A DNA stretch of 60,544 nucleotides from a virus, in IMG/VR virus record IMGVR_UViG_3300048996_000071, positions 1-60,544 of that record; one strand, given 5' to 3'. Positions 694-15,238 of this stretch are shown piece by piece. Within the stretch, counting starts at the first letter, position 1; the number at the start of each line of letters is the position of its first letter. The position numbers were made by a program, and so were the translations under genes. A model generated the notes under the pieces. The model had not been told where the DNA came from. It searched no databases and saw nothing but the letters and a program-made list of their open reading frames with translations.

Positions 694-748
694 TGCCCCC
701 GCCGGGAGTCGAACCCGGCCTGCACCCAGTATCACTGTGCTCGGGGGC
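694..748 (-). ncRNA. tRNA-like minihelix T1
   Basis: On the minus strand GCCCCCG pairs perfectly with CGGGGGC (7-bp acceptor), followed by an A at the discriminator position. The T-arm is CCGGG-TTCGACT-CCCGG. The 23-nt link holds a small hairpin (CAGT-GAT-ACTG) and the motif GGTGCAGG seen in other copies. There is no D-arm and no usable anticodon loop, so this is not a normal tRNA. It sits between the stop of the 73-aa gene and the Shine-Dalgarno of the metallopeptidase gene. Confidence 0.7.
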
Positions 749-755
749 GGTCTTG

Positions 756-977
756 CTAGCGCGTCGAGTCGGGAAGGTCCAGACCGGCCTCGTCCAACGC
801 ACTGGATGCGGCGGCGATCAGGGTCCGCTGATCGCTGTTCCAGCGCGCCTTCCCCGTCGAGGGGCCGCTGTTCACGATCTCGGTCGGGTCCTGCGACGCG
901 ACGATGAGGACAAAGTCGGTCATCTCCTCTTCGGACAGTTCCTCGACGAACTTCTCGATCGGGCTGGTGTTGCTCAT
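756..977 (-). CDS. Small acidic protein, 73 aa, unknown
   Basis: Starts at ATG 977 with GGAGGAAGTAC just upstream. The start overlaps the stop of the 230-aa gene by ATGA, indicating translational coupling. The product is short and acidic at its N-terminus (SPIEKFVEELSEEEM) with no membrane segment or recognised domain. It precedes tRNA-like element T1, whose 5' strand begins 7 nt after the stop. I do not recognise the family. The overlap and ribosome site make it a confident gene. Confidence 0.75.
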   Translation of the reverse strand: MSNTSPIEKFVEELSEEEMTDFVLIVASQDPTEIVNSGPSTGKARWNSDQRTLIAAASSALDEAGLDLPDSTR

Positions 978-1666
978 GTACTTCCTCCGAGTGGGTGTCG
1001 CGTCCGAGGCCTGGTTGCTTCCAGGTCCGGTGGTTCCGTGTTGTGCCTCTCGCCAAACAGTTCGCGCACGAGGGGTGGCCGCACGAGGGGCAGGATCTGG
1101 GTTGGCGGATCGTCGCCCGGCTGAATGACCGGGATGATGGCAGTTGGCGCCTCGGGCGGCGGCGAGATCGGCACCGGCGGCGGCGTTGTTCGCGGCCCGG
1201 GCCAGCCCTTGTAGGGAATCAGAAGCGGGGGTCGCGCCCGCTCCTCGTCGGGCCACTCAAGCATGTTCTGGTGCTTGGGTGGCGGCTCCGGGAACTCGAA
1301 CGCGGACCAGTCAATCATGTTCTCGTGCTTGGGTAGAAACTTCGGCGGGATGTACTGGAACTTCTGCGGCGGCCAGAGGGTATTGGCCAGCGCCTCCGGA
1401 AGGCCCAGCTTCGGCACTTTCGCCGCGTTCTCCTCGTCCGCCACGGACGTCACTGCCGTCACTGCCGCCTCGACCGGCGGCAGCTCCAGCATGTGGTGGT
1501 TGAGCCAGTAGCTGCTTGGACGCTCATCGGCCCAGGCGGTGGGGTCCGACCCCCTAGCAATGCAGGTAGCGTAGTACAGGAACGGCGGCAGCTCGTCGTC
1601 GGGTTCTTCCCTGTGGAGCATTTGCCTTACCGAAGGGTCGATGTCCTCCGGGCGATGAGATGTCAT
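974..1666 (-). CDS. Proline-rich protein, 230 aa, unknown
   Basis: ATG 1666 has an ideal GGAGGTGAC ribosome site and follows the MoxR stop by 9 nt, so it belongs to the same operon. The N-terminal third is mixed and possibly folded. The rest is rich in proline with repeated PPKF/HENM-like phrases around residues 110-145 (PPKFLPKHENMIDW then PPPKHQNMLEW), an internal short duplication. No membrane segment. It may be an adaptor or structural linker of the MoxR/metallopeptidase system, but this is inferred only from position. Confidence 0.75.
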   Translation of the reverse strand: MTSHRPEDIDPSVRQMLHREEPDDELPPFLYYATCIARGSDPTAWADERPSSYWLNHHMLELPPVEAAVTAVTSVADEENAAKVPKLGLPEALANTLWPPQKFQYIPPKFLPKHENMIDWSAFEFPEPPPKHQNMLEWPDEERARPPLLIPYKGWPGPRTTPPPVPISPPPEAPTAIIPVIQPGDDPPTQILPLVRPPLVRELFGERHNTEPPDLEATRPRTRHPLGGST

Positions 1667-1675
1667 GTCACCTCC

Positions 1676-3277
1676 CTAGCTGTAGTAAGACTTGATGGAT
1701 TCCTCGACCTGGCGACGAGAGTCGGGGTCGAGGTAGTTGAGGACACCGATGGCGAACGCCTGCTGCGGCTGGAAGTGCCGCATGAGGCGGGCGACCTTGA
1801 CCTGGTTAGCGATGCCCCAGGTGACGTTGATGCTGCTGTCGGAGGCCAGGACTCGGATGTCCTTGGCAACCTTCATCAAGTCATCGAGAATCGGCGCCGG
1901 GTCGTAGTTGTCCAGCGTCATGCACCAGCGGGTGATGATGTCTCGCTCGATCGGCTCGGGCGGCATGCCGACGTTGATGTGCAACAGTCGCCGCGCGTCA
2001 GCGTCGCCGATCTCGTTGGTGCCGACGTTGCGTGAATCCCAGGCGGGGTTCGCCGCCAGTGCGATGTAGCAGTCCGGGTGCTGATCGAACTCCTGGCCAT
2101 CGGCCTGGTCGAGTACCAACTGCTTGCTGTTGTCGAACACGGGCCGGGTGAACTGCCAGATCGGTTCCGGTGCCGTGTTCGGCTCGTCAAGGCAGATGAC
2201 GCCCGGCTGTTCGTAAACCTTGGTGAACCGCCCGTACTGGAAGTACGTACCCTTTTCGGGGTGGTACATCATCTTCCCGGCTAGATCATCCAGCTCGGAA
2301 CTGCCGGTGATGGAGTACCTGGTGAACGGCGCACCCATCAGGTAGGCCATGTACCGAAGGGCCTCCGTCTTGCCGACGCCTGGAATGCCCCACAGGATCG
2401 GGGTCATGTTGAGCTTGGTCCAGGCTACGACAATCTGCCAGACGACACCGGCGTAGTCGGTGTACAGCTCCGAGTGCTCCTTGTCGCCGTGCAGGGGCAC
2501 CTGCTTGCCCCGGTTGCCGAAGTGATCGAGGTCGTAGACCGGCAGGAAGCATGGCTCCGCGTACGAGTTGGGGTCGTCGATGCGGCGATATGCCCTGATG
2601 CCACGCTTGCGATCGTCATCAGTCACAGGCGCATCGGACAGCCACTCCTGCGGCTTCACAGTGCGGTGACGAGTCGCCTGCTTTGCGGGGTCGACAACCC
2701 CGAACGACCTGTCGTTCTCCGGGAACAGTCGCAGTCCCTGAAGGTTGGGACGCCTGCTCGGGTTTGTGCTGAACTGCTCGTTGTCCTCGCAACCCTTGGG
2801 GTACTGGTCGAGGCGATCCGCAAGCAGCAACGCACCCTTAGCCAGGCACAGGGGCGCATCGTATCCCGTCTCGGCCCTCACCATCGAGGCCGGGACAAAG
2901 TTGGTGCAGCTAACGCAGTTCGCCGTGCGCGGCCGAGCTGCCGGGTCGTCTACCTCGTTGTTCGGCAACGGCAACGCGATCTCAAACTCAAACGGCGCCG
3001 AGAACGCACTGACGTTGAAGCCCTGGAATGATTTGCCGAACTGACCGCATCCCCTGGCGTTGTGTTCCAGCTGTCGGGCCTGGACCTGATTACTGGCCGC
3101 CGCGTTGAGTAGCGGCTTGCTGTGTACGCCGCAGATGGGAGTACCGATTGTCGAACCCATGTTCGTCCGCTGATCGTCGGCACTGATGGCAGAGGGGCAA
3201 TTGGCACAGCTGCGATCCGATCCCTTGACGGCGAACGGAAGGTTGAGCCTGCCATGTCTTGCGGGAGGTGTGGTCAC
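1676..3277 (-). CDS. MoxR-type AAA+ ATPase with Cys-rich N-terminal region
   Basis: 533 aa starting at GTG 3277 with GGAGGATCG upstream. The AAA+ core has Walker A GIPGVGKT at about 297-304, Walker B ICLDEPN near 361-367, a sensor-like AANPAWDSR near 408-416 and arginines at DADARR. This is the MoxR/CbbQ arrangement. The first 170 residues carry CANC, CVSC and single cysteines that could bind zinc, an unusual addition. MoxR proteins remodel partner proteins, usually with a VWA or metallopeptidase partner, which lies three genes downstream. Transcribed from the TTGACA/TAGGAT promoter at 3298-3326. Confidence 0.85.
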   Translation of the reverse strand: MTTPPARHGRLNLPFAVKGSDRSCANCPSAISADDQRTNMGSTIGTPICGVHSKPLLNAAASNQVQARQLEHNARGCGQFGKSFQGFNVSAFSAPFEFEIALPLPNNEVDDPAARPRTANCVSCTNFVPASMVRAETGYDAPLCLAKGALLLADRLDQYPKGCEDNEQFSTNPSRRPNLQGLRLFPENDRSFGVVDPAKQATRHRTVKPQEWLSDAPVTDDDRKRGIRAYRRIDDPNSYAEPCFLPVYDLDHFGNRGKQVPLHGDKEHSELYTDYAGVVWQIVVAWTKLNMTPILWGIPGVGKTEALRYMAYLMGAPFTRYSITGSSELDDLAGKMMYHPEKGTYFQYGRFTKVYEQPGVICLDEPNTAPEPIWQFTRPVFDNSKQLVLDQADGQEFDQHPDCYIALAANPAWDSRNVGTNEIGDADARRLLHINVGMPPEPIERDIITRWCMTLDNYDPAPILDDLMKVAKDIRVLASDSSINVTWGIANQVKVARLMRHFQPQQAFAIGVLNYLDPDSRRQVEESIKSYYS

Positions 3278-3291
3278 CGATCCTCCAATCA

Positions 3292-3326
3292 GCGCCTATC
3301 CTACCACTACGATAGGCGCGTGTCAA
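3292..3326 (-). promoter_or_regulatory. Promoter of the moxR operon with overlapping inverted repeat
   Basis: Minus-strand -35 TTGACA (3321-3326), 17-bp spacer and -10 TAGGAT (3298-3303). A 9-bp inverted repeat, GCGCCTATC and GATAGGCGC (3292-3300 and 3311-3319), covers the -10 and most of the spacer. The repeat fits a dimeric repressor site. Its GCCTAT half resembles the palindrome at the 17.65-kb promoter. Confidence 0.75.
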
Positions 3327-3354
3327 CCGGGATAAAACGGACACACTGATGGCT

Positions 3355-3609
3355 TCAATCCTCCAGGTTGAGCCATTCTTGCATCGTCAGCCCGTTCGGG
3401 TACCTGCCACGATGCTCGGCGTCACGCAGCCGCTGCTCGGCCACGGCCGCCGCCGCCGGATCAGCGAGGTGGTCATCGCAGAGGTACGGCATCGTCTTGC
3501 CGACTTTCCGTGCACCGGTGGCCTGCGCAGAGCAACCGGGGCGTTCGCACTTAACACCGGCGGCGGCCAGTTGCTGCCTGACCGCCGCCGCCTTGTCGTT
3601 CTCGCTCAC
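3355..3609 (-). CDS. Small putative zinc-binding protein, 84 aa
   Basis: GTG 3609 overlaps the stop of the upstream membrane protein gene by GTGA, so I take this start rather than the longer open frame. The product has CERPGC and a later C-x2-H (LCDDH), a plausible four-ligand zinc knuckle at about residues 21-46, followed by an alanine-rich helix and a C-terminal LTMQEWLNLE segment. Function unknown. It is the last gene before the promoter that faces the moxR operon. Confidence 0.65.
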   Translation of the reverse strand: MSENDKAAAVRQQLAAAGVKCERPGCSAQATGARKVGKTMPYLCDDHLADPAAAAVAEQRLRDAEHRGRYPNGLTMQEWLNLED

Positions 3610-4244
3610 GGTGCATCCTTCTCGCACTGGGCCAATGCATCTAGTGCTGGTTTGTATTTCGACTTGAAATCCTGGTAGGCATTCTCCTGGGTCTGCGCCA
3701 GGTCGCGCTGCCGTATCTGGATCTCGCGTAGTGCATTCCAGTCCTTCTCGGCGATGGCCCTGGTTGCAGCCTTTGCGATATCGATCTGCGTGTTGGACTT
3801 GCTGTTGAGCTGGTTGACATCCTCGATGATCGACTGCATCAGAACTACTGCCTGCCTGCATGACTCCGGCAGGACCGTCTTGGTAACGGTTTCGGTCACC
3901 GTGACGGTAACTGTTACCGCAGTCGTTGCGCCGGGCGCTGCCGCAGCTGGTACCGCAGGCCTGCGCTCCGGGTATGCAGGATTATCTGGTCCACGTTCCG
4001 CCAGATGCATGGCATACGCTGAGCTAATGATGTACAGCATCATCACCCAGAACAGCCATCTCGGTACGCGTACCCGCTTACCTGATGCGGGTGTCGGCGG
4101 AGGCCTTGATGCTGGCTGCGGCAACATCGGAGGCGGAGGTGAAGGCGGGGGCCTGTTCGCTTTCGCACGGGTTGCCCGCCTTGCCGGACTCGGCTCTGGT
4201 AGAGGCCGAGTATTCATGGCATTGATGAGATCATCCATGTCCAT
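3606..4244 (-). CDS. Single-pass membrane protein with Pro-rich and VTVT linkers, 212 aa
   Basis: Begins with MDMDDLINAM, then a proline-rich cytoplasmic segment (about 15-55), one hydrophobic segment (RWLFWVMMLYIISSAYAM, about 62-80), a striking threonine-valine repeat (VTVTVTVTETVTKTV, about 109-123) and a C-terminal helical region with two cysteines. Topology suggests an inner-membrane anchor with an external helical domain. Family not recognised. Overlaps the next gene by GTGA. Confidence 0.7.
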   Translation of the reverse strand: MDMDDLINAMNTRPLPEPSPARRATRAKANRPPPSPPPPMLPQPASRPPPTPASGKRVRVPRWLFWVMMLYIISSAYAMHLAERGPDNPAYPERRPAVPAAAAPGATTAVTVTVTVTETVTKTVLPESCRQAVVLMQSIIEDVNQLNSKSNTQIDIAKAATRAIAEKDWNALREIQIRQRDLAQTQENAYQDFKSKYKPALDALAQCEKDAP

Positions 4245-4252
4245 GCTGACAC

Positions 4253-4900
4253 CTAGCCAAGAAGGCTAGGCGGCCCGGGAGCCGGACGGCCGACGAGATT
4301 TCCGTCAGCGTCGATCTCTTCGAGATACCAGACGCGACACGGGTACTGACCTCCGACGTCGAACTTGACAGTTCGCCAGTTCGTATCGACATGCTCGTCG
4401 CCCCTGAAAACGACGACCCCCGTGTGCGTGCCTTTCTGAAGGTAGCGGACGCGAGTGTTCACGGGAAACGAGCCGTCGTCAGTGTTGCGATCGGCCTCGT
4501 CGATCTCCTTGCCGAAGTACTGGTGAAGCAGTCGGCTCGTCTCGTCGACGAGCCTCTCCGGGTCCTCGATGTAGTCGAAGAACATCTTGTCGATAGAGGC
4601 GAGCGCCTGCTTCGCGGCGAGCAGCTCCACCTCGATGCCAACCGACACGGTCACCTCGGAGAGGAGCAGGTCGACATCACTCCGCCTCGCCCACACAAAC
4701 CCGGGCGCAGTCGGAACGTAGCCCGGTCGAGGCGGGATCAGCGCTGCGGTGCGCAGGTTCCTGAACGCCTCGCGAGCGGGCGCCGCCAGGGCGGCGAGCA
4801 CCTCCTTTTCGGTCAGTTCAGAACCTCGGACGCTGGAAGGGGATGCCGACCGCTTTGGGTGGCACAGCCTCTCCAGCAGGCTCGGGATCAGGTTCTTCAT
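4253..4900 (-). CDS. Unknown protein, 215 aa
   Basis: ATG 4900 has GAGGGGGACG upstream, although this makes an 83-nt overlap with the end of the preceding gene. A later start cannot be excluded. The C-terminal half (about 140-205) has short beta-like stretches and a VRYLQKGTHTGVVVF phrase suggestive of an SH3-like barrel. The last codons form a CCTAGCC/GGCTAGG hairpin (4254-4272). No family recognised. Confidence 0.65.
   Translation of the reverse strand: MKNLIPSLLERLCHPKRSASPSSVRGSELTEKEVLAALAAPAREAFRNLRTAALIPPRPGYVPTAPGFVWARRSDVDLLLSEVTVSVGIEVELLAAKQALASIDKMFFDYIEDPERLVDETSRLLHQYFGKEIDEADRNTDDGSFPVNTRVRYLQKGTHTGVVVFRGDEHVDTNWRTVKFDVGGQYPCRVWYLEEIDADGNLVGRPAPGPPSLLG
4254..4272. repeat. Hairpin CCTAGCC-AAGAA-GGCTAGG
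   Basis: A 7-bp perfect inverted repeat overlaps the stop codon of the 215-aa gene. There is no T-run on either strand, so a Rho-independent terminator is unlikely. The CCTAG half-site recurs in other palindromes of this phage. Confidence 0.5.
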
Positions 4901-5204
4901 CGTCCCCCTCTTCTACTCCCAGATCATCCAGGAGTATGTCAAACTCTACGGAGAACGCCGCCATCATAGCGGCGCCGTACTCGGCGGCCGTTGCCTCGGC
5001 GGTCTCCTCGACCTCGAACTGAAGACGAAGCCAGCCATCGTCGGGGCATGCCGTGCATGCCGCCTCGCCGGTGGTCTGATGCGTGTTGCCGTGGCCGAGG
5101 CGAAACACCTGCGGATGTCCCCGCACATACTGAACGCCGTGGATCATGCAGCTAACCTTGACCGAGATTGCCCGCACCAGGGTGAAGGGCGTGTCGTCAG
5201 TCAT
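4818..5204 (-). CDS. Unknown acidic protein, 128 aa
   Basis: Starts at ATG 5204 after GGAAGTGAAGTACT. Contains a CTAC motif with other Cys/His residues (HGVQYVRGH, HTHQTTGEAACTAC) at about 22-55, possibly a zinc site, and a strongly acidic tail (GVEEGDDEEPDPEP). No homologue recognised. It is the first gene of the group that reads toward the moxR promoter region. Confidence 0.65.
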   Translation of the reverse strand: MTDDTPFTLVRAISVKVSCMIHGVQYVRGHPQVFRLGHGNTHQTTGEAACTACPDDGWLRLQFEVEETAEATAAEYGAAMMAAFSVEFDILLDDLGVEEGDDEEPDPEPAGEAVPPKAVGIPFQRPRF

Positions 5205-6688: not shown

Positions 6689-7187
6689 GGTACTCCAATG
6701 CCGTAGGCACCCGTCCCAGGTAGGGGCGGGTGCTGGATGGGGGTGCAGGGGTTCGCGAGAATATCTCTTGACTTACCTGCGTGGTTCCCCATCCAGCTGT
6801 CAGGGCTGTATTGACACTGCATCGCAACGACAGATGGATCTGTACACCCTTGCCTCGCGGGTTTACGGTCCCCGGGGGGAGAGTTCTAACCCTTGAGCGC
6901 TTCGTGTTAACGAGTCCAGCTGCGCACGAGAGGCTTGCCTACATACGAGGCCCAGTGACTGCACCGATTTACTGAATCCATGCCGGGTCTTGGTAGGAAG
7001 ACCCACCTGCATGCGGCCTCGCCGCTCCACCTTGGCGTGGTCGGCGACGGAGGACAAGTCCGGCACCCGCCGAGGAGCATACGTGCCTGGAGGTCAATCC
7101 GGCCGGGATGGTGTACCAGCGGGACGACGCTTCAATCGGTGCAGTCACTGCGCCCAGCATATGGGTCGCCGTGCTGTGTTGCGTGCT
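6689..7187. other. About 500 bp without a confident gene
   Basis: Downstream of the 7191-7219 promoter. Minus-strand frames at 6863-7066 and 6969-7160 lack convincing ribosome sites and I do not call them. The segment holds an 11-bp hairpin (6707-6733, GCACCCGTCCC/GGGGCGGGTGC) and a 7-bp hairpin (GGGTCTT/AAGACCC). It may be a structured leader for the micro-gene operon. Confidence 0.5.
6707..6733 (-). repeat. 11-bp GC-rich hairpin in leader
   Basis: GCACCCGTCCC pairs with GGGGCGGGTGC (one G-T pair) around AGGTA. It lies about 20 nt upstream of the first micro-gene start and has no U-tract. Confidence 0.55.
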
Positions 7188-7190
7188 TGC

Positions 7191-7229
7191 ATCCTACCAC
7201 ATGGATCGGGGGATGTCAACCCCCCGATC
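7191..7229 (-). promoter_or_regulatory. Promoter TTGACA-17-TAGGAT with inverted repeat
   Basis: -35 TTGACA (7214-7219), -10 TAGGAT (7191-7196), spacer 17. A 9-bp inverted repeat GATCGGGGG/CCCCCGATC (7204-7212, 7221-7229) flanks and displays the -35 in its loop, an operator-like layout. The spacer half GATCCATGTGGTAGGATG is nearly repeated in the promoter at 10853-10881. Confidence 0.75.
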
Positions 7230-7571: not shown

Positions 7572-7616
7572 TGACCGCCGAGGGACTCGAACCCCCAACC
7601 TTTCCCCGGCGCGGTC
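7572..7616 (-). ncRNA. tRNA-like minihelix T2
   Basis: Minus strand: GACCGC pairs with GCGGTC (6 bp), discriminator A, T-arm GGGGG-TTCGAGT-CCCTC, link GCCGGGGAAAGGTTG. No D-arm or anticodon arm. The acceptor sequence differs entirely from T1 and T3 but keeps pairing. It precedes the 92-aa gene. Confidence 0.65.
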
Positions 7617-7682
7617 AGTCGTGCGATACACCTTCCGAGTCCCTGCAGGGAGACGCGACGCTTCTCACGAAAGGCATACCTC

Positions 7683-7736
7683 GTGGCTGACCCCGTACTC
7701 CAGGGACTGCTCTATCCAGTTGAGCTAGACAGACAA
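7683..7736 (-). ncRNA. Orphan tRNA 5' half (acceptor strand, D-arm, stem-loop)
   Basis: The minus strand has a textbook tRNA start: seven bases, TA, D-arm GCTC-AACTGGATA-GAGC, then a GTCCC/GGGG stem-loop. I find no matching 3' acceptor strand (GACAGAC) and no T-arm in place. It may be a decayed tRNA or a D-arm mimic. A CACGA/TCGTG hairpin follows. Confidence 0.45.
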
Positions 7737-7742
7737 CCAGTT

Positions 7743-7838: not shown

Positions 7839-7841
7839 ACG

Positions 7842-7917
7842 TAGCGGGAACTGGATTTGAACCAGTGATCTTCGGCTTATGAGGCCGACGAGGACGACCT
7901 AACTCCTCTATCCCGCC
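7842..7917 (-). tRNA. tRNA-Met (CAT)
   Basis: Acceptor GGCGGGA/TCCCGCT (first pair G-U), TA, D-arm GAGG...CCTC, anticodon arm TCGGC-CTCATAA-GCCGA with anticodon CAT, variable loop AGATC, T-arm ACTGG-TTCAAAT-CCAGT, discriminator A, no encoded CCA. A CAT anticodon could also be read as tRNA-Ile after lysidine modification. I cannot separate these by eye. Confidence 0.9.
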
Positions 7918-7983: not shown

Positions 7984-9129
7984 TCAGCCTACCAACTTGG
8001 CGGCCTTGCGACCGTCCGCGTTGATCACGCCTTCGATGCCGGGGATCGTGCACTTGGTGCCGTCGTTCGGGTCGTTCTTGTCGGGGAACAGGCGGGCTGA
8101 CACCGCGCCCGGGCTCGGCGACTCGGTGCCGTACTCGTCGGACGGAGTCTTGACGATCTCGTTGATCGAGAGCACGGTACCCACGGGCTTGCCGGCGAAG
8201 GCGCTCAGGATATGGTTCGCGATGTTCTTCCGAGTACCGTCGCCCGCCGCGCGAGGCGACCGGGGCGTTGAGGTGCCACTCGCGGCCTTGCGGGGCTTCG
8301 CGACGCTGGCCCGACCCCGGGCCAGCCGGAAGCCCGCCTTGATGACGTCGGTCGCCTCCGGCGCTTCCTTGTCGAGGGCCTCGCGGACCTCCTCGGTCGC
8401 ATCCTCGGGCAGCGCCGCCACCTTGTCCTGATGGGCAGCGTACGCCCGCGCTGCATCGATCAGCTGCTGGGTGGACTGCTCGTTGAGCTTGTCCGGCCAG
8501 TCAGCGTCGACGCCCTCGGGCACCCGCACCATGTAGGGTGCGATGTACAGGCCGAGCACCTGATCGATGAAGGCCTGCGTCACGTCGACGGTCACCTTCG
8601 GCGCCGCCGGCGCCTTCGCGCCGGTGCTGACCAGCGAGTGCTTCTTGATCATGAACCACGAGCGGGCGTACGGCGAAAGCGCCGGGTCCTCCATGGCTCG
8701 GCCGACCTCGGCGTCGACCCAGGTCTTGACCCTGGTGCGGACGGCACCGGCGGGCAGCTCGTTGAACTTGGCCCGAATGTCGTTCAGCACACCGTCGGGG
8801 AAGAAGCCGGTGCTTTCGTCGCGCACGTCGCTGCAGATCAGGCCGCCGACCCAGTCGCCCGATTCGTTCCTGACGCCGAGGTAGTCGATGAAGTCGGTGG
8901 CGAGCTTGTCGAGACGCGCAGCCTCGGCAGCGGCTTCCGCCTTGGCCTTCGCCTCGGTTTCGGCCGCAGCAGCAGCCTTCTGCTCCTCGGTCAGCTCGAC
9001 CGGCGCCTCGGGCGTGCCCTCGGTGGTCGAGTCGACCGCGTTGGGGTCGGTCGACTCAGCGCTGGCTTCGGTGCTGACAGTCACGGTCTCGGTCTCGCCG
9101 AGCACCGCACCGTCCTGGGAGTCAGACAT
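7984..9129 (-). CDS. Protein with acidic N-terminus and C-terminal wing-like domain, 381 aa
   Basis: Start ATG 9129 follows GGAGGTGCAC. Residues 1-65 are acidic and low-complexity, then an alanine/glutamate coiled region (about 50-80), a central alpha-rich part, a basic linker (about 285-310), and a C-terminal domain (about 312-381). That domain contains NHILSAF, GTVLSINEIV, EYG and PSPGAVSARLF. The same domain ends the proteins at 9398-9853 and 9933-10565. The pattern suggests a winged-helix or HARE-HTH-like DNA-binding fold (inference). Possibly a regulator or nucleoid-type protein. Confidence 0.75.
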   Translation of the reverse strand: MSDSQDGAVLGETETVTVSTEASAESTDPNAVDSTTEGTPEAPVELTEEQKAAAAAETEAKAKAEAAAEAARLDKLATDFIDYLGVRNESGDWVGGLICSDVRDESTGFFPDGVLNDIRAKFNELPAGAVRTRVKTWVDAEVGRAMEDPALSPYARSWFMIKKHSLVSTGAKAPAAPKVTVDVTQAFIDQVLGLYIAPYMVRVPEGVDADWPDKLNEQSTQQLIDAARAYAAHQDKVAALPEDATEEVREALDKEAPEATDVIKAGFRLARGRASVAKPRKAASGTSTPRSPRAAGDGTRKNIANHILSAFAGKPVGTVLSINEIVKTPSDEYGTESPSPGAVSARLFPDKNDPNDGTKCTIPGIEGVINADGRKAAKLVG

Positions 9130-9179
9130 GTGCACCTCCAAGGTGTACGATAGTGTGTGTTCTCCGTGCGTCACCACCT

Positions 9180-9320: not shown

Positions 9321-9398
9321 CTAACCAGCAGAGTTGAATCCGCTGATTGTGACACTGTCGTCGTCCTCGATGTCTATGGCCAGGTATTCCCGGGCCAT
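9321..9398 (-). CDS. Possible acidic micro-protein, 25 aa
   Basis: ATG 9398 overlaps the TGA of the upstream gene as TGATG. The product is MAREYLAIDIEDDD followed by a short polar tail. Support is the coupling arrangement only, with no separate ribosome site. Confidence 0.35.
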   Translation of the reverse strand: MAREYLAIDIEDDDSVTISGFNSAG

Positions 9399-9853
9399 CA
9401 GGCTACCTTGATCGCACCCTTCCTGCCAGCAGGGTACGCATCGCTGATGATCAGCGTACCCTTGACGTTGCCAACCGTGCGCGGCGTGCCGTCGGCGTCG
9501 AAGAGTCGCGCCGCAACGGCACCGGCCCCCGGAGAGTCGTCGCCGTACTCCACGGAACGATGCCTGGCGATCTCGGCGACCGTCAGCTCCGCGTGCTCGG
9601 GCTTGTCGGTAAAGGCACTGATGATGTGCTGGCCGACATCACGTCGCGGGCCGAAATACTTCTCGGCAAGATCAACCTTCGGCGCAGGCTCCTCCTCGTC
9701 GTATGCGCTCTTCCCGGTTTCGATCGTCTCGGCGAATTTGTCAAACGCCTCGGCGATCGACGAGTACACTCTCGCCTCGATGTGATCTTCCGTCAGATTG
9801 TAGTTCATGCGGAACTCTCGCGCAACGGCACGAGCCGCTCTGACTGCGTCCAT
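9398..9853 (-). CDS. Wing-like domain protein, 151 aa
   Basis: ATG 9853 lies 6 nt after a TAGGAT -10, so the mRNA is predicted to be leaderless. Residues 1-75 are helical. Residues 76-151 carry the shared domain (QHIISAFTD, ELTVAEIARHRSVEYG, SPGAGAVAARLF, NVKGTLIISDA). This is one of three paralogues in a row, suggesting a duplicated DNA-binding family. Possible roles include transcription control. Function unproven. Confidence 0.75.
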   Translation of the reverse strand: MDAVRAARAVAREFRMNYNLTEDHIEARVYSSIAEAFDKFAETIETGKSAYDEEEPAPKVDLAEKYFGPRRDVGQHIISAFTDKPEHAELTVAEIARHRSVEYGDDSPGAGAVAARLFDADGTPRTVGNVKGTLIISDAYPAGRKGAIKVA

Positions 9854-9859: not shown

Positions 9860-9889
9860 ATCCTACCTTACACAGGCCGGTCATGTCAA
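9860..9889 (-). promoter_or_regulatory. Leaderless promoter TTGACA-18-TAGGAT
   Basis: -35 TTGACA (9884-9889), 18-bp spacer, -10 TAGGAT (9860-9865), then six bases and the ATG. The expected +1 is at or next to the start codon. Confidence 0.75.
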
Positions 9890-9898
9890 CCAGCTTTG

Positions 9899-9938
9899 TG
9901 CCTGGGGCGGGAATCGAACCCGCCCTGCACCATCAGGC
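9899..9938 (-). ncRNA. tRNA-like minihelix T3
   Basis: GCCTG/CAGGC end stem, link ATGGTGCAG, T-arm GCGGG-TTCGATT-CCCGC, discriminator A. Its 5' strand GCCTG contains the TGA stop of the 210-aa gene. Followed by a promoter instead of a TAGACAG hairpin. Confidence 0.7.
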
Positions 9939-10565
9939 TACCCTTTCTCCACCCTTCACGTTGTTGACGTAGCAGGGCACGATGCCCGGCGTGAGCGACT
10001 CACGCTTCCCGTCGTCCGTACGGAACAGCCACGCCATGACGGCACCAGGTGACGGGTGGTTGTTGCCGTACTCCTCCGACGTGTGCGCGACAATCTGGGC
10101 AATCGTCAGCTTCGTGCCGATCGGCAGGTCAGCGAATGCCGAGATGATGTGCCTGGAGACCTGGCGCCGAACGGGCGTGCGCTGTAGGGCAGGATCACCC
10201 TTCGGCCCACAGTCCGGCCTCGGCTGCAACACAGCCTGCTCGTTGCGCCGCTGAATCACCCAGGGCCAATCGCCATCGATCAGGCCCTGCACGATCGCGC
10301 CAGCCAGCACCAAATTCAGCTGATCGAGGTTGGCGCCGCACTCGGCGGCCAGCGTATTGTAGTCGACCTGCATGCGGTCCCGAGCATCTGCATCGGGTGC
10401 GTAGTGAAGCAGCACCTCAAGCAGACTATAGCTCGCCGTACCGGGACCTGTCATGTCCCCTCCGATGATGATTCGCCGTAGTGTCTGGCTGGCCGTTTCG
10501 TGCGGGTACGCCATGCGGCGTATCTGTTCCCGCACTTCGTTGTCTACGCGCACCATTCTACTCAT
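9933..10565 (-). CDS. Wing-like domain protein, 210 aa
   Basis: ATG 10565 overlaps the stop of the upstream gene by ATGA. The N-terminal 40 residues resemble a ribbon-helix-helix segment (MVRVDNEVREQIRRM, then TASQTLRRII), the middle is helical, and the last 75 residues are the shared domain (RHIISAFADLPIG, LTIAQIVAHTSEEYG, PSPGAVMAWLF). The gene ends inside tRNA-like element T3. The RHH plus wing-like architecture suggests a DNA-binding regulator. Target unknown. Confidence 0.75.
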   Translation of the reverse strand: MSRMVRVDNEVREQIRRMAYPHETASQTLRRIIIGGDMTGPGTASYSLLEVLLHYAPDADARDRMQVDYNTLAAECGANLDQLNLVLAGAIVQGLIDGDWPWVIQRRNEQAVLQPRPDCGPKGDPALQRTPVRRQVSRHIISAFADLPIGTKLTIAQIVAHTSEEYGNNHPSPGAVMAWLFRTDDGKRESLTPGIVPCYVNNVKGGERVA

Positions 10566-10846: not shown

Positions 10847-10852
10847 GTACAC

Positions 10853-10917: not shown

Positions 10918-10957
10918 GCCTGGGGCGGGAATCGAACCCGCCCTGCACCTATCAGGC
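10918..10957 (-). ncRNA. tRNA-like minihelix T4
   Basis: GCCTG/CAGGC end stem, link ATAGGTGCAG, T-arm GCGGG-TTCGATT-CCCGC. Located 10 nt after the stop of the 153-aa gene and upstream of the 10853-10881 promoter. Confidence 0.7.
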
Positions 10958-11451: not shown

Positions 11452-11470
11452 GCGCAGTAGTCTACTGCGC
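11452..11470 (-). promoter_or_regulatory. Hairpin H2 (loop TAGACTA)
   Basis: GCGCAG-TAGACTA-CTGCGC, 6-bp stem. Loop differs at the last two bases from the TAGACAG family. 5 nt downstream of T5 and 22 nt upstream of the 153-aa start. Confidence 0.65.
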
Positions 11471-11474
11471 TACG

Positions 11475-11523
11475 TGCCTGGGCGAGGAATCGCACCCCGC
11501 CTGCACCGAACTATCGGCCAGGC
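11475..11523 (-). ncRNA. tRNA-like minihelix T5
   Basis: GCCTGG/CCAGGC end stem (6 bp), T-arm CGGGG-TGCGATT-CCTCG with a G at loop position 2, and a CCGA-TAGT-TCGG mini-hairpin plus GGTGCAGG in the link. Begins 2 nt after the stop of the 26-aa gene. Confidence 0.6.
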
Positions 11524-11525
11524 TA

Positions 11526-11606
11526 TCAGGTTTTGAGCGCTATGTACAGGGCCGCGGCAATGATTGCCGTTACCCAGAACACGCGTTTGAATGTGCCCCA
11601 GTCCAT
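11526..11606 (-). CDS. 26-aa single-span membrane peptide
   Basis: ATG 11606 with GGGAGGTATC upstream. MDWGTFKRV then a hydrophobic span (FWVTAIIAAALYIAL) and KT. A clean ribosome site, a position between two coupled units and a typical transmembrane composition support a real micro-gene. It ends just before T5. Confidence 0.6.
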   Translation of the reverse strand: MDWGTFKRVFWVTAIIAAALYIALKT

Positions 11607-11618
11607 GATACCTCCCTG

Positions 11619-12185
11619 TTACAGGTCGATCGTGGAGTGTCCGCATTCGAGCTCGTAGGCTGCCGTAGGATCACGGTGCGCCTCAACCACGAACCGACGG
11701 ACCACCCTGGGCGCACGCAGCGTACCGTCCACGAGGGGCGGGCAGCTATAGCATGGCCTGCGCTCGGGCGGCTGGACAAGGTGGCACCCGCAACCCAGCA
11801 CCTCGGTGTCCCGCTGTGGCCTGGCCCGGTAATCCCGGTACCAGTCCACCAGGGGCACGCGGACCAGGTGAATCGGGCAGTCGCGCAGCTCGGACAGACT
11901 CATCAGGCGCTCGTACTCGGCATGCCGCACGTCATCGGCACGGGACAGGTCGAGACCCTCCCGGTCGAACACGTGCTCGCAGTAACCCTCGTACGAGTGC
12001 TTGCCGCGCCTGGTGATCTCAGTGCCGCTGCCACAGGGCACGCAGTACCACGTGAACCGCAGCCAGCTGATCAGCGAGGCTCGGGATTCCGATTTGTACT
12101 CGAATCCCTGCAGCCAGTCGTAATACCAGTCCAGCTGCGCGTCACGACGGAACGAACGCACCTCGGCGTCTTCCATGTCACCCAT
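11619..12185 (-). CDS. Cys-rich unknown protein, 188 aa
   Basis: ATG 12185 is 23 nt from hairpin H3 with GGTAGGAAGG between. Several CxxC pairs (CVPC about 48-51, CGCH about 132-135, CYSC about 144-147, CGH near the end) suggest one or two zinc-binding sites. Tryptophan/tyrosine-rich N-terminus (DWYYDWLQGFEY). No recognised family. Confidence 0.7.
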   Translation of the reverse strand: MGDMEDAEVRSFRRDAQLDWYYDWLQGFEYKSESRASLISWLRFTWYCVPCGSGTEITRRGKHSYEGYCEHVFDREGLDLSRADDVRHAEYERLMSLSELRDCPIHLVRVPLVDWYRDYRARPQRDTEVLGCGCHLVQPPERRPCYSCPPLVDGTLRAPRVVRRFVVEAHRDPTAAYELECGHSTIDL

Positions 12186-12208
12186 GACTAGTGGGCCTTC
12201 CTACCATG

Positions 12209-12231
12209 GCCAGCCCCTGTCTAGGGCCAGC
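12209..12231 (-). promoter_or_regulatory. Hairpin H3 (loop TAGACAG)
   Basis: GCTGGCCC-TAGACAG-GGGCTGGC: 8-bp stem including two G-U pairs. 5 nt after T6 and 23 nt before the 188-aa start. Confidence 0.7.
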
Positions 12232-12236
12232 TACGC

Positions 12237-12276
12237 GCCTGGGGCGGGAATCGAACCCGCCCTGCACCAATCAGGC
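12237..12276 (-). ncRNA. tRNA-like minihelix T6
   Basis: GCCTG/CAGGC, link ATTGGTGCAG, T-arm GCGGG-TTCGATT-CCCGC. Follows the 100-aa gene by 4 nt. Confidence 0.7.
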
Positions 12277-12280
12277 TTTA

Positions 12281-12583
12281 TCAGGTGACGATCTGCTTTT
12301 GTGCGAGCCTGTCCATGAACGGAACGTCATACATGAACGCGCACTCCAACATGGTCTGCGTGAGCCCATCGTACGATGGGCTCTGTGGATCGACCACGCC
12401 CGAGTCGTGAATCAGACTGATGGCGCGATCAACGGCGCCATCACGAATACTGGTCGCCTCGCTACTGGTTTCCAGCAGTACCGTCCTATTGATCAGGACG
12501 TTGTACAGCTGGAAGGTCAACTCTGTGGCCCGATCGTCCATGATCTGGCGAACGTCGTCGACCGTGAAGCTAGACTGTGACAT
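12281..12583 (-). CDS. Helical protein, 100 aa, paralogue of the 10968-11429 product
   Basis: ATG 12583, six nt after TAGGAT, so a leaderless transcript is possible in addition to read-through from upstream. Mostly helical. The second half aligns with the 153-aa paralogue (IRDGAVDRAIS, then TMLECAFMYDVPFM). Function unknown. The duplication within a few kb suggests a shared role. Confidence 0.7.
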   Translation of the reverse strand: MSQSSFTVDDVRQIMDDRATELTFQLYNVLINRTVLLETSSEATSIRDGAVDRAISLIHDSGVVDPQSPSYDGLTQTMLECAFMYDVPFMDRLAQKQIVT

Positions 12584-12589
12584 ACAGCC

Positions 12590-12618
12590 ATCCTACTCTA
12601 CCGGCCAGCCCCTGTCTA
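12590..12618 (-). promoter_or_regulatory. Possible leaderless promoter TAGACA-17-TAGGAT
   Basis: -10 TAGGAT (12590-12595), 17-bp spacer, TAGACA (12613-12618) as -35. The -35 is the loop of hairpin H4, so this hairpin copy may double as promoter DNA. Confidence 0.5.
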
Positions 12619-12626
12619 GGGCCAGC
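12604..12626 (-). promoter_or_regulatory. Hairpin H4 (loop TAGACAG)
   Basis: Same sequence as H3. 5 nt after T7 and 20 nt before the 100-aa start. Confidence 0.65.
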
Positions 12627-12631
12627 ACTGC

Positions 12632-12670
12632 GCCTGGGGTGGGAATCGAACCCACCCTGCACCATCAGGC
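12632..12670 (-). ncRNA. tRNA-like minihelix T7
   Basis: GCCTG/CAGGC, link ATGGTGCAG, T-arm GTGGG-TTCGATT-CCCAC. Relative to T6 the second T-stem pair changes C-G to T-A on both strands, a compensatory change. Confidence 0.7.
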
Positions 12671-12677
12671 CTTCTGT

Positions 12678-13097
12678 TCAGCCGCCCAGAATACGATCGG
12701 CATAGTCCTCGTTGTACCACACGTTGCCAGCTCGATCCAGGCACGCCGATCCCTCCGCCTCGTGGCCGAGGTAGTCGGTACAGCGGCCAGCCTCATCGGA
12801 GGAAGACTTGCACCTGCCAAGGTAGCCCACCATGTCGAATCCCAGCTCGTCCAGTTTCGCGTTGCTGGGCTTCTGACCCTGGTAGGCCAGTGGCGTCGCC
12901 ACGTCGGTTGCAGCGAAGTCAGCCGGAATCACGCAGAACGCGATCCAGTCATACTCCTCCATGTCACGGACGGCGTTCAGGATGTGCTCCTGGACCAGGG
13001 CGTTCGACCGAAAGGTCTCTTCGCCCTGCATGAACACGTCCGTCTCGGTCTGCTCGCCTGATCGAAGCGCGATCGTCACGTTTGCCCGTACAGCCAT
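12678..13097 (-). CDS. Unknown protein, 139 aa
   Basis: ATG 13097 sits 23 nt after hairpin H5 with AGGAAGG between. An in-frame upstream ATG overlaps the ribosome site and is rejected. The first 60 residues look like a beta-rich fold (VRANVTIALRSGEQTETDVF). The C-terminal half has three cysteines. Function unknown. Confidence 0.7.
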   Translation of the reverse strand: MAVRANVTIALRSGEQTETDVFMQGEETFRSNALVQEHILNAVRDMEEYDWIAFCVIPADFAATDVATPLAYQGQKPSNAKLDELGFDMVGYLGRCKSSSDEAGRCTDYLGHEAEGSACLDRAGNVWYNEDYADRILGG

Positions 13098-13120
13098 GAC
13101 TAATGACCTTCCTACCATGT

Positions 13121-13139
13121 GCGCAGCTGTCTACTACGC
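13121..13139 (-). promoter_or_regulatory. Hairpin H5 (loop TAGACAG)
   Basis: GCGTAG-TAGACAG-CTGCGC, 6-bp stem with one G-U pair. The stem differs from H3 but the loop is identical. 5 nt after T8 and 23 nt before ATG 13097. Confidence 0.7.
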
Positions 13140-13144
13140 AACGC

Positions 13145-13183
13145 GCCTGGGGCGGGAATCGAACCCGCCCTGCACCATCAGGC
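13145..13183 (-). ncRNA. tRNA-like minihelix T8
   Basis: GCCTG/CAGGC, link ATGGTGCAG, T-arm GCGGG-TTCGATT-CCCGC. Begins 4 nt after the stop of the 98-aa gene. Confidence 0.7.
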
Positions 13184-13187
13184 CTTA

Positions 13188-13484
13188 CTAGAGTTTCGCG
13201 ATCCAGAAGATCCACCTGCCGACCAGGAACGACTGGCCACCGTTGCGCTCGACATCGGCCTCGACGCGTTCAGTGTCGAGGACGCGAAGCGAGGCTTCCA
13301 GGTTGAAACGCTGGTAGGCGGTCAGCACCTGGCGCCCGCCCTCACCTTTGAGAATAGCGCCGAAGCCCTTCCAGGCATCCTCGAAGTTCGGGTATTCGAT
13401 GGTGTTGGCAGTGATGGTGGCGTGTCCTGGGCTGTTCCAGCCCACGGTCCACGTACCGGCCGTCTTGATCATTTCGACAGTCAT
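13188..13484 (-). CDS. Unknown protein, 98 aa
   Basis: ATG 13484 lies 22 nt after hairpin H6. The long upstream open frame runs through T9 and is not coding. A beta-rich N-terminus (TAGTWTVGWN) is followed by ILKGEGGRQVLTAYQRF and a C-terminal QSFLVGRWIFWIAKL. Possibly a small protein-binding fold. No family recognised. Confidence 0.65.
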   Translation of the reverse strand: MTVEMIKTAGTWTVGWNSPGHATITANTIEYPNFEDAWKGFGAILKGEGGRQVLTAYQRFNLEASLRVLDTERVEADVERNGGQSFLVGRWIFWIAKL

Positions 13485-13506
13485 GACTAGTGACCATTCT
13501 ACCCAG

Positions 13507-13529
13507 GCCAGCCCCTGTCTAGGGCCAGC
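13507..13529 (-). promoter_or_regulatory. Hairpin H6 (loop TAGACAG)
   Basis: Same 8-bp stem as H3. 5 nt after T9 and 22 nt before ATG 13484. Confidence 0.7.
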
Positions 13530-13534
13530 TTTGC

Positions 13535-13581
13535 GCCTGAGGCGGGAATCGAACCCACCCACACCCCACCAGGAGCCAGGC
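13535..13581 (-). ncRNA. tRNA-like minihelix T9
   Basis: GCCTGG/TCAGGC end stem (last pair G-U), T-arm GTGGG-TTCGATT-CCCGC (one T-G pair), longer link with CTGGTGGGGTG. Confidence 0.65.
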
Positions 13582-13588
13582 TTTTGTA

Positions 13589-13864
13589 CTAGTCGCCGTA
13601 GCAGCGGAAGCAGTAGCTCCATCCCCTGCACCAGTGACCCTGGTCGATGGCCGCACCCCAAGGGGTACGGTACAGCACTCCCTCGCGTCGCATGGCAGCG
13701 AATGCCAGCTCGACAGCGTACTCCTCGGCGAGCGGTGGCTGACTATAACGCACCTCGTGAGGCAGGTCATAGTCAACATAGTAGCTCACCCACCAGTCCA
13801 CCTGGAAGGTGAACATCTTCCGCTGGTGTTCCGGCAGCATGCCCAATGCAACTTCCAGCTTCAT
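13589..13864 (-). CDS. Aromatic-rich unknown protein, 91 aa
   Basis: ATG 13864, 23 nt after hairpin H7 with a weak GGGA site. The N-terminus is helical (LEVALGMLPEHQRKMF) with a WW/YY-rich middle, and the C-terminus is Cys/Trp-rich (WCRGWSYCFRCYGD), possibly binding metal. Unknown function. Confidence 0.65.
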   Translation of the reverse strand: MKLEVALGMLPEHQRKMFTFQVDWWVSYYVDYDLPHEVRYSQPPLAEEYAVELAFAAMRREGVLYRTPWGAAIDQGHWCRGWSYCFRCYGD

Positions 13865-13887
13865 AGCTAGAGTCCCATTCTACCCTG

Positions 13888-13910
13888 GCTGGCCCCTGTC
13901 TAGGACCAGC
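13888..13910 (-). promoter_or_regulatory. Hairpin H7 (loop TAGACAG)
   Basis: GCTGGTCC-TAGACAG-GGGCCAGC: two stem positions that are G-U in H3 are A-T and G-C here. 5 nt from T10. Confidence 0.7.
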
Positions 13911-13914
13911 ACTG

Positions 13915-13957
13915 TGTCCAGGGTGGGAGTCGAACCCACCAGATCACCAATCTGGAC
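13915..13957 (-). ncRNA. tRNA-like minihelix T10
   Basis: End stem GTCCAG/CTGGAC (6 bp), different in sequence from GCCTG/CAGGC but still paired. T-arm GTGGG-TTCGACT-CCCAC, discriminator A, link ATTGGTGATCTG. An alternative CCAGAT/ATCTGG hairpin is possible. Confidence 0.7.
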
Positions 13958-14045
13958 GCGTGGCAGGGTTATTTGAGATCACGCACATTGCCTGGCCAGC
14001 CTGTGCGTAACCTGCGAGGTACCATACTGAGCCGCCCCATGCCAT
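13944..14045 (-). CDS. Possible 33-aa peptide
   Basis: ATG 14045 with AGAGGG upstream at suitable spacing. Sequence MAWGGSVWYLAGYAQAG then CVISNN, and its stop lies inside T10. It fills the gap between T12 and T10. Composition is aromatic and alanine-rich. Weak support. Confidence 0.4.
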   Translation of the reverse strand: MAWGGSVWYLAGYAQAGQAMCVISNNPATRPDW

Positions 14046-14061
14046 ACAGAGGCCCTCTACG

Positions 14062-14127
14062 TAGCATCCCGGAATCGAATCCGGCAGTAGACGAGGAGTG
14101 CCCGCCCACCGGCTAACCTGCAATGCC
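14062..14127 (-). ncRNA. tRNA-like element T12 (larger, degenerate)
   Basis: GGCATTG can pair with GGATGCT (two wobbles, one mismatch), and a CCGG-ATTCGATT-CCGG arm has an 8-nt T-like loop. The 36-nt body is too short for both D and anticodon arms. It lies between the 208-aa gene and the 33-aa frame. May be a decayed tRNA. Confidence 0.45.
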
Positions 14128-14162
14128 GACCACTCACCACCCCCGTCCTTGGGGGTGAGTCC

Positions 14163-14789
14163 CTATTTGCCAGTGTATTCGCGCACCTGGCGAGCGTGTT
14201 CGATGGCGACCCTGGCAGCCCGCATGATCTGCGGACTGAGTTTGCCCGTGAACCCGTACTTGGACTTCACGTAGGCAGCGATCTCGGCCCTGGTCGGGCC
14301 GTTGCCGCTGGCGCCACCGTTGCTGGAGCTGGTGCGGGTGCTGGCAGCGCGCTTGGGTGCAGCGCCGCCCTTCGGCGCACGCTTCACCTTCGACGCGGCG
14401 GCAGCCCTGTTGTCCAGCTTCTCGGCAACAGCGGGCTTCACCACGCGGGCCACCTTTAGCGGACCGTCAGGCGTGTCGATCATGCGCTGGACCAGGCGAT
14501 CACGACCCACGAACCAGACACCTTTGTCAGTGTCATAGCGCGGGTAGTTGTCGACCTCGTCCTGGCTGACCGAGATGCCGGGTCGGGGACTGGCGGGCGT
14601 GTTGTTCGGCGCTGATTCCAACGGCGAACGCACGCCCACGCAGAACCCCGTCATCGGGTTCACCACGTCGACCAGTTTGTTACCACCCAGGTCTCGGCGA
14701 CGCAGCATGGAATGAGGTTCGACCCGATTCTGGACGAACATGCGTTCCGTGCGCAGCTGTTCCTGCGTGATCACAATTGGTTCAGTCAT
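14163..14789 (-). CDS. Basic protein with Lsr2-like-looking tail, 208 aa
   Basis: ATG 14789 is 23 nt after hairpin H8. The N-terminal half is unrecognised (PRYDTDKGVWFVGRDRLV around 95-112). A basic linker of Lys, Ala, Ser, Gly and Asn follows, then a C-terminal 50 residues TRAEIAAYVKSKYGF...SPQIMRAARVAIEHAR. This resembles the small DNA-binding tails of actinobacterial nucleoid proteins in size and placement only. A nucleic-acid-binding role is an inference. Confidence 0.65.
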   Translation of the reverse strand: MTEPIVITQEQLRTERMFVQNRVEPHSMLRRRDLGGNKLVDVVNPMTGFCVGVRSPLESAPNNTPASPRPGISVSQDEVDNYPRYDTDKGVWFVGRDRLVQRMIDTPDGPLKVARVVKPAVAEKLDNRAAAASKVKRAPKGGAAPKRAASTRTSSSNGGASGNGPTRAEIAAYVKSKYGFTGKLSPQIMRAARVAIEHARQVREYTGK

Positions 14790-14812
14790 GACTAATGACC
14801 TTCCTACCATGT

Positions 14813-14831
14813 GCGCAGCTGTCTACTACGC
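14813..14831 (-). promoter_or_regulatory. Hairpin H8 (loop TAGACAG)
   Basis: Identical to H5 (6-bp stem). 5 nt after T11 and 23 nt before ATG 14789. Confidence 0.7.
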
Positions 14832-14836
14832 AACGC

Positions 14837-14876
14837 GCCTGGGTGGGGAATCGAACCCCACCTGCACCTATCAGGC
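14837..14876 (-). ncRNA. tRNA-like minihelix T11
   Basis: GCCTG/CAGGC, link ATAGGTGCAG, T-arm TGGGG-TTCGATT-CCCCA (stem changed on both strands relative to T8). Its 5' strand contains the TGA stop of the 83-aa gene. Confidence 0.7.
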
Positions 14877-15122
14877 TTTGTTATTCGAAGTGATGTCAAC
14901 CGTGATGTCAGCCGTGACCAGTTCTCCCTGCATCGCGTTCAGCTCCAGCTTCACGAAGTGCAGGTACTCGTCATCGGTCATCAGGCCCCTGCGATATTGC
15001 GCCAGGATCTTTTCCAGGTACGCCATGTGCGTCGCACGGATGGCATCACTGATCATGTCGTTCAGCTTCCTGGTACGCCTGGTCATCGGCCGCTCGACAG
15101 CTTCGATGGTGATTTCCGGCAT
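14871..15122 (-). CDS. Small helical protein, 83 aa
   Basis: ATG 15122 follows GTAGGGAGG, 21 nt after hairpin H9. Basic, helical region (RPMTRRTRKLNDMISDAIR) then an acidic YLHFVKLELNAM helix and a short beta-like tail. It is the first gene of the punctuated minus-strand series. Function unknown. Confidence 0.7.
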   Translation of the reverse strand: MPEITIEAVERPMTRRTRKLNDMISDAIRATHMAYLEKILAQYRRGLMTDDEYLHFVKLELNAMQGELVTADITVDITSNNKA

Positions 15123-15143
15123 GACTAATGCCTCCCTACCAGT

Positions 15144-15166
15144 GCGTGCCCCTGTCTAGGACACGC
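15144..15166 (-). promoter_or_regulatory. Hairpin H9 (loop TAGACAG)
   Basis: GCGTGTCC-TAGACAG-GGGCACGC: 8-bp stem with different base pairs from H3 and H7 and the same loop. 21 nt from ATG 15122. Confidence 0.7.
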
Positions 15167-15169
15167 TAG

Positions 15170-15238
15170 CGGCTGTAGGGGGAATTGAACCCCAGTAGGA
15201 CCAGGCGCCCCCATATTGCCAGGCGCCCATCTACAGCC
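15170..15238 (-). ncRNA. tRNA-like element T13
   Basis: Perfect 7-bp acceptor GGCTGTA/TACAGCC, discriminator G, T-arm with TTCAATT loop, and one long hairpin in the body (GGCGCC/GGCGCC). No D-arm or anticodon-sized loop. It is the first element of the series, upstream of the first gene. Confidence 0.65.

Follow-up and report, generated by a model that had tools for sequence, protein, structure and literature searches.

The window analyzed here is a virus record of 60,544 bases (IMG/VR record IMGVR_UViG_3300048996_000071) in which the minus strand carries, between 0.7 and 15.2 kb, small genes with tRNA-like elements between them. Twelve of these elements are tRNA "top halves" made of a T-arm and an acceptor stem, and a thirteenth is a degenerate copy; they are numbered T1 to T13, and all lie on the minus strand. 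Pfam and PHROGs assigned no function to the small genes, most of which lacked any match. At the protein level, the closest characterized relatives are Gordonia, Rhodococcus, and Tsukamurella phages, to which the portal is about 51% identical across 71% of the protein and the AAA-ATPase 35 to 38% identical, and the putative host is assigned from these relatives. A megablast comparison of the window with phages returned no matches, nor did a search of viral contigs with the single ATPase protein, where an alignment was needed as the query instead. The only tRNA that ARAGORN and Rfam place in the window is a tRNA-Met at 7841 to 7917, and nothing but this true tRNA reached the gathering score when Rfam (release 15) was run over the window.

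A strict scan for a T-loop of the form TKCRANN under 12 pairs, with at most two G-U pairs and a linker shorter than 40 nt, found 11 elements on the minus strand and none on the plus strand, against 0.017 per Markov-shuffled genome. The twelfth element, T13, misses this rule by one absent pair. Together with direct reading, the scan located every minus-strand element named in an earlier note made from the sequence, and that note's overall interpretation, a family of tRNA-like minihelices, is borne out. All 12 elements have the same total of 12 coaxial base-pair positions under a 7-nt T-loop, and what varies is how the 12 are split: 7+5 in T1 and T13, 6+6 in T2, T5, and T10, and 5+7 in the remaining elements. 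For T3, T4, T6 to T9, and T11, the earlier note had described a T-stem and an acceptor of 5 bp each and left two bases unpaired; these elements are there, but the GG that ends GGTGCAGG is paired, giving 12 contiguous pairs. A purine and then C (R73-C74) stand directly 3' of all 12 elements, as they do after the tRNA-Met of the window, a flank that the note had missed. The linkers, 8 to 37 nt long, contain no canonical anticodon arm. The elements therefore lack the full cloverleaf with anticodon arm that marks a tRNA gene, and they possess the 12-bp T-stem/acceptor stack and 7-nt T-loop of a tRNA-like RNase P substrate.

The elements differ in their surroundings and details. T1 (695 to 748, loop TTCGACT, then AC) lies inside an operon and is followed by a GGAGG leader, with no promoter-like site seen, and T2 (7573 to 7616, loop TTCGAGT, then AC) adjoins the tRNA-Met. 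T3 (9900 to 9938) contains the stop codon of the upstream open reading frame (ORF) at 9933 to 10565, just as T11 (14837 to 14876) contains that of the ORF at 14871 to 15122. T5 (11476 to 11523) has G at loop position 55 (TGCGATT) and carries a D-like hairpin, CCGA-TAGT-TCGG, on the minus strand, so that the absence of a D-arm, which the note had claimed throughout, is not universal. The others are T4 (10918 to 10957, z of -3.7), T6 (12237 to 12276), T7 (12632 to 12670), T8 (13145 to 13183), T9 (13535 to 13581, with two G-U pairs among its 12), T10 (13916 to 13957), and T13 (15171 to 15238), which has a 37-nt insert with its own hairpin. The degenerate T12 (14061 to 14117), which has an 8-nt loop and no R-C flank, was seen by direct reading and missed by the strict scan.

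Viral contigs with 44 to 61% G+C proved to contain the same element when they were searched with patterns for the linker and T-arm; a very specific pattern gave no matches, and looser ones did. In the arrays of two such contigs (L107 and L102), each gene has its stop codon within the element that follows it, and a hairpin stands between that element and the gene after it. Nine window-like elements from contigs of this kind were the sole training set of a covariance model, which ranked ten window elements above every other match in the window, with E values, rough owing to short calibration, from 5e-16 (T3) through 4e-12 (T4) and 1e-5 (T5) to 3e-3, and so passed a check that the earlier note had proposed. 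A second form, found beside the window-like one, has TGCAAAC as its T-loop and a D-like hairpin (ATCCGTNNAAGCGGGT) as its linker. Successive scans for this D-hairpin form returned 101 and then at least 120 stretches, and the IMG/VR contigs that carry it number more than 130. Two copies of this form occur in an isolate, Synechococcus phage S-EIV1, and 92 of the 187 loci tested have proteins in common with that phage. Six element-bearing loci compared with Rfam (release 15) gave no match at or above the gathering score.

The family also reaches the relatives of the window phage, where the note had proposed to look, and extends far beyond actinophages. In the syntenic region of the relatives, small genes are separated by gaps of about 100 bp that hold mostly ordinary hairpins and TTGACA...TAGACT promoters. 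Gordonia phage Austin has two elements with very different stems (GCCCTA...CGTAGG-TTCGAGT-CCTACG-TAGGGC), the same R-C flank as in the window, and no visible promoter ahead of the next start codon; GMA7 and Amore2 have the same elements as Austin. At another locus (L045), a perfect 7+5 element stands immediately 3' of a stop codon and is followed by a short leader and the next gene, and a further 7+5 element lies within a long noncoding stretch (L028).

The stems change as those of a selected RNA should. Across 14 distinct spliced elements, a set whose counts keep related sequences in, both sides change in 9 of the 12 pairs, which bears out the covariation that the earlier note had described, and 99.4% of cells are paired; the covariation score was 0.764, compared with 0.192 for shuffled alignments and at most 0.15 for slid structures. 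In a 36-element alignment (A6), itself picked for pairing, both sides change in 11 of 16 pairs. A test on 188 distinct elements selected by pattern is free of that bias for the acceptor, because the D-hairpin pattern leaves the acceptor unconstrained: a single register pairs five of five positions in 77% of them, another 14% use the 6+6 register, and most other offsets are near zero, while inner pairing, still 0.83 at pair 7, drops to 0.05 at pair 8. On the coding strand, G-U pairs number 131 and A-C mismatches 18, which points to RNA of the sense strand. From these results we conclude that the RNA family is almost certainly real.

Covariation also links the linker to the T-loop. The linker residue at the position of G18 covaries with T-loop residue 55: GG occurs in the linker with 28 of 33 TTC loops and with 0 of 129 TGC loops, which mostly have AG, in counts uncorrected for common descent. 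T5, the only TGC-loop element of the window, has TAGT as its D-like loop. The same exchange is found in six tRNA-Leu genes of the same contigs, where a TGC loop is accompanied, in two genes, by a D-loop of the AATTAGTAG type in which AG replaces GG, and the genes with TTC loops have GG. The guess in the earlier note that a linker GG docks into the T-loop thus gains support, and the residues covary as would be expected of a tRNA elbow, for which docking in three dimensions is predicted.

Position relative to genes is equally regular. In a set of 162 elements drawn mostly from viral contigs, 124 (77%) have the stop codon of the upstream ORF beginning within their first 12 nt, compared with 6.5% at shifted positions, and the median distance to the start of a downstream ORF is 35 nt. 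In 90% of the viral-contig elements (11% when shuffled), the discriminator is closely followed, usually after 1 to 3 nt, by a hairpin with five or more pairs, and 31 distinct leaders form an H-type pseudoknot in which both stems are fully paired and show compensatory changes. The window has its own version, a hairpin scoring at least 6 that lies 4 to 10 nt after 10 of the 12 elements (6% of shuffles), with a loop that is mostly AGACA. All on the minus strand, such hairpins follow T13 (15144 to 15166, GCGTGTCCT/GGGGCACGC), T11 (14812 to 14832, TGCGTAGT/GCTGCGCA), and T8 (13120 to 13140) by 4 nt and T10 (13888 to 13910, GCTGGTCCT/GGGGCCAGC), T9 (13507 to 13529), and T6 (12209 to 12231) by 5 nt, each with the AGACA loop. 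Three more stand 5 nt behind T5 (11452 to 11470, GCGCAGT/ACTGCGC), T7 (12604 to 12626), and T3 (9876 to 9894), the last two overlapping promoter-like matches at 12590 to 12618 and 9860 to 9889, respectively. These window hairpins could in part be DNA operators around a -35 box, where relatives have inverted repeats.

Several properties of RNase P bear on what such elements might do. The enzyme gauges a set length of the T-stem/acceptor stack, counted from the elbow of the tRNA (PMC4919913), and hairpins of acceptor, T-stem, and T-loop alone are model substrates that it can cleave (PMC11143913). In mascRNA and menRNA, elbow mimicry recruits both RNase P and RNase Z (PMC11693755). The elements retain the elbow and the T-stem/acceptor features and drop the decoding half, and the form without a D-hairpin resembles the RNase P model substrate. 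We favor, with moderate confidence and from comparison of sequences, a reading in which they punctuate mRNA through RNase P and RNase Z. The element RNA would fold as a 12-bp acceptor/T-arm stack capped by the T-loop, and the GG (or AG) of the linker, or of the small D-like hairpin, would dock in that loop, so that a tRNA elbow forms although the anticodon arm is lacking. Holding this elbow, the RNase P of the host would use the 12 bp as a ruler and cleave at the 5' boundary of the element, and the upstream mRNA would end at or just past its own stop codon. Cleavage behind the discriminator base, by RNase Z or by a different enzyme of tRNA 3' processing, would be predicted to leave the downstream mRNA with a 5' end a few bases from a protective hairpin or pseudoknot; bacterial mRNAs are known to be stabilized by 5' secondary structures (PMC3997798). 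A single polycistronic phage transcript would in this way become separate mRNAs through enzymes that the host cannot lose. The benefit, at a guess, would be more stable mRNA or the chance to control small genes separately.

The 3' flanks differ between the two forms at the site where the 3' RCCA of an RNase P substrate contacts the RNase P RNA. Elements of the actinophage type have R73-C74 without a full CCA, and the D-hairpin form has A-T-T, with T at both 74 and 75 in 186 of 188 elements, compared with an encoded CCA in five of six tRNA-Leu genes of those contigs. The TT of the D-hairpin elements in place of this CCA is consistent with cutting of the elements by RNase Z.

Elements resembling those of phages also occur in cellular genomes. 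As a control, the D-hairpin pattern was scanned genome-wide against bacteria, where it matched 33 stretches; chance matches in unrelated bacteria mostly do not fold, whereas the matches in Prochlorococcus single-cell genomes, a metagenome-assembled genome (MAG) of Ktedonobacteraceae, and a gut archaeon MAG do. Among picocyanobacterial genomes of the Prochlorococcus family, 29 of 151 match the covariance model at an E value of at most 1e-4, and each of them has one copy or two. Inspection placed the element, in most cases, within the 3' untranslated region (3' UTR) of a histone-H1-like gene (for example, single copies in L312 at about 5000 to 5060 and in L329 at 1501), mostly with no codirectional gene close behind; the neighbor gene was convergent in the locus examined. 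The 3'-UTR copy beside the histone-like gene suggests a cellular version of the element. Separately, the gut archaeon MAG has four matches to the minihelix model within 1.7 kb (G044:C1:106023-107748, L341), an array that is perhaps viral. In the Ktedonobacteraceae MAG, a minihelix of the D-hairpin form (L298, 1471, minus strand) lies directly upstream of an ORF whose N terminus we take to resemble IS605-family TnpB.

Three observations weigh against punctuation by RNase P and RNase Z. Promoter-like sequences lie behind T3 and T7 (by scan) and T4 (by direct reading), so that processing would be unneeded there for the next mRNA. The C74 behind the actinophage elements may be a nonideal context for RNase Z. 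In picocyanobacteria, a 3'-UTR site on a single gene, with a convergent neighbor in the locus examined, implies that the element there serves only the upstream mRNA or is itself the product. One rival reading has mRNAs simply end at a tRNA-like structure that blocks 3' exonucleases or receives CCA, with no removal by RNase P. Such a 3'-end protector would suit the site directly behind stop codons, the lack in most inspected picocyanobacterial cases of a close codirectional gene downstream, and the ordinary strong hairpins that fill the equivalent gaps in relatives of the window phage. We nevertheless think it unlikely, because a plain hairpin would serve equally well and leave no need for a ruler of exactly 12 bp or for covariation between T-loop and D-loop, and because conserved structure 1 to 3 nt downstream suggests that the 3' side has an end as well. 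Release of the minihelix as a trans-acting tRNA-like RNA, which might titrate RNase P, EF-Tu, tRNA-modifying enzymes, or a tRNA-targeting defense, would fit up to 12 copies per genome and complete-elbow features; it is less probable again, as a decoy needs neither a stop codon placed in it at each gene, nor conserved 5' structure behind it, nor stems that vary from gene to gene.

Explanations that dispense with processing altogether fare worse. The location of T3, T4, and T7 between a stop codon and a promoter-like site is what would be seen if the element stopped transcription or insulated one promoter from another, but a terminator scan found no intrinsic terminator at the elements, no T-run follows them, and by direct reading the next gene has no visible promoter after T1 or after the elements of Austin, L045, and L109, making this account very improbable. 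Marginally more doubtful still is a gene-cassette boundary acting as DNA, either as a folded single-strand site of the integron attC kind or as a stretch of homology that seeds gene shuffling. Gene and element are repeated as a unit, some copies are near-identical, and several relatives encode tyrosine recombinases, yet the excess of G-U pairs over A-C mismatches fits RNA rather than DNA, neighboring copies differ in their stems, and conservation falls on a tRNA T-loop rather than on an attC core site; direct reading of the element 3' ends found no GTTRRRY, and attC sites were rejected. Real and odd tRNAs do occur near the elements in these phages, as would be expected if the latter were decaying tRNA genes or tRNA attachment-site fragments. 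That origin is scarcely credible, since decay would neither preserve 12 compensated pairs nor put relics on stop codons, an attachment site keeps only the tRNA 3' half without the 5' acceptor strand, and the covariation contradicts it.

Relationships to known systems are partial in every case. In the early genes of T7, intergenic hairpins are cut by the host nuclease RNase III to give separate phage mRNAs, with both enzyme and structure different from those considered here. Plant-virus 3' tRNA-like structures also place a tRNA mimic on viral RNA, at its end; they belong to RNA viruses and combine a pseudoknotted acceptor with a CCA end and aminoacylation, whereas the elements are internal and serial with no encoded CCA. 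The tRNA-like domain of tmRNA shares the acceptor, T-arm, reduced D-region, and lack of an anticodon arm, and phage tmRNA 3' ends match element T-arms weakly, but the elements have no mRNA-like domain, tag, or pseudoknot chain. As a candidate, tmRNA was rejected: ARAGORN found none in the window, and the only match to the tmRNA model was a 17-nt T-arm below threshold. Viral tRNA mimicry is a subject in its own right (PMC5723415). Mitochondrial tRNA punctuation likewise excises intergenic tRNA structures to release mRNAs (PMC8601606) but uses real tRNAs, and the elements, having no anticodon arm, cannot decode. In MALAT1/mascRNA and MEN-beta/menRNA, the RNA carries at its 3' end a tRNA-like element that draws in RNase P and RNase Z through elbow mimicry (PMC11693755); these systems are eukaryotic, occur once per long noncoding RNA, and have an anticodon-like stem, whereas the elements are phage or bacterial, serial between protein genes, mostly 39 to 48 nt long, and often hold the stop codon inside. 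Synthetic RNase P model substrates have a nearly identical architecture (PMC11143913) but are laboratory designs, while the elements appear to occur naturally, in repeated copies and under selection, and often include a D-like hairpin. We found no description of the element family in the open-licence literature searched, an absence that, like that from Rfam, does not prove novelty.

Other structured sequences were noted in these genomes. In the window, three adjacent minus-strand genes (7984 to 9177, 9398 to 9853, and 9933 to 10565) have in common a phrog_6708 C-terminal domain, to which no function is assigned. A large structured noncoding region on the same strand (6700 to 7200), without a match in Rfam, includes a 17-bp inverted repeat (CAGTGACTGCACCGATT/AATCGGTGCAGTCACTG), a GCTGGATGGGG/CCCCATCCAGC hairpin, and a GC-rich hairpin behind a TTGACA-TAGGAT promoter-like site. 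Upstream of T2 (7620 to 7740, minus strand) lies a tRNA-like 5' half (TAGCTCAACTGGATAGAGCA), possibly of a tRNA with a long insert. The Rhodococcus phages ReqiDocB7 (L008, near 15872, minus strand) and Perlina (L009, near 14386, minus strand) have tRNA-like elements of about 115 nt with 7-nt acceptor strands, for which ARAGORN makes no tRNA call. An unannotated long degenerate tRNA-like stretch occupies a gap in Streptomyces phage Yaboi (L327, 863 to 1060), and an unannotated isolated T-arm with an R-C flank and then a leader occupies one in Mycobacterium phage Bane1 (L326, 1180 to 1332). A tRNA-like gene at another locus (L082, G001:C1:72000-72700) has an apparent insert of about 45 nt in its anticodon arm, and the gaps of S-EIV1 (L207) hold another repeated motif, CCTGGGCRTCCAT...TAAGTCCCAGG, possibly a third type of element.

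In our judgment the evidence is evenly balanced on a broader proposal, that a stop codon set in a tRNA top half and followed by a 5' hairpin or pseudoknot may constitute an undescribed gene-end module of actinobacterial and cyanobacterial phages and of picocyanobacteria, one that would make RNase P and RNase Z general mRNA cutters of polycistronic phage transcripts. Standard tRNA and Rfam scans miss the element. The paired exchange of the D-loop residue and T-loop residue 55, seen both in the elements and in the real tRNAs of the same phages, provides a comparative test of the elbow contact. If the punctuation reading is true, the elements would be natural counterparts of minimal RNase P substrates designed in the laboratory and would offer a portable tool for cutting synthetic operons. 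The cell's most conserved RNA-processing enzyme would then serve phages as an operon editor, and RNase P would gain a widespread role in the life of bacterial mRNA.

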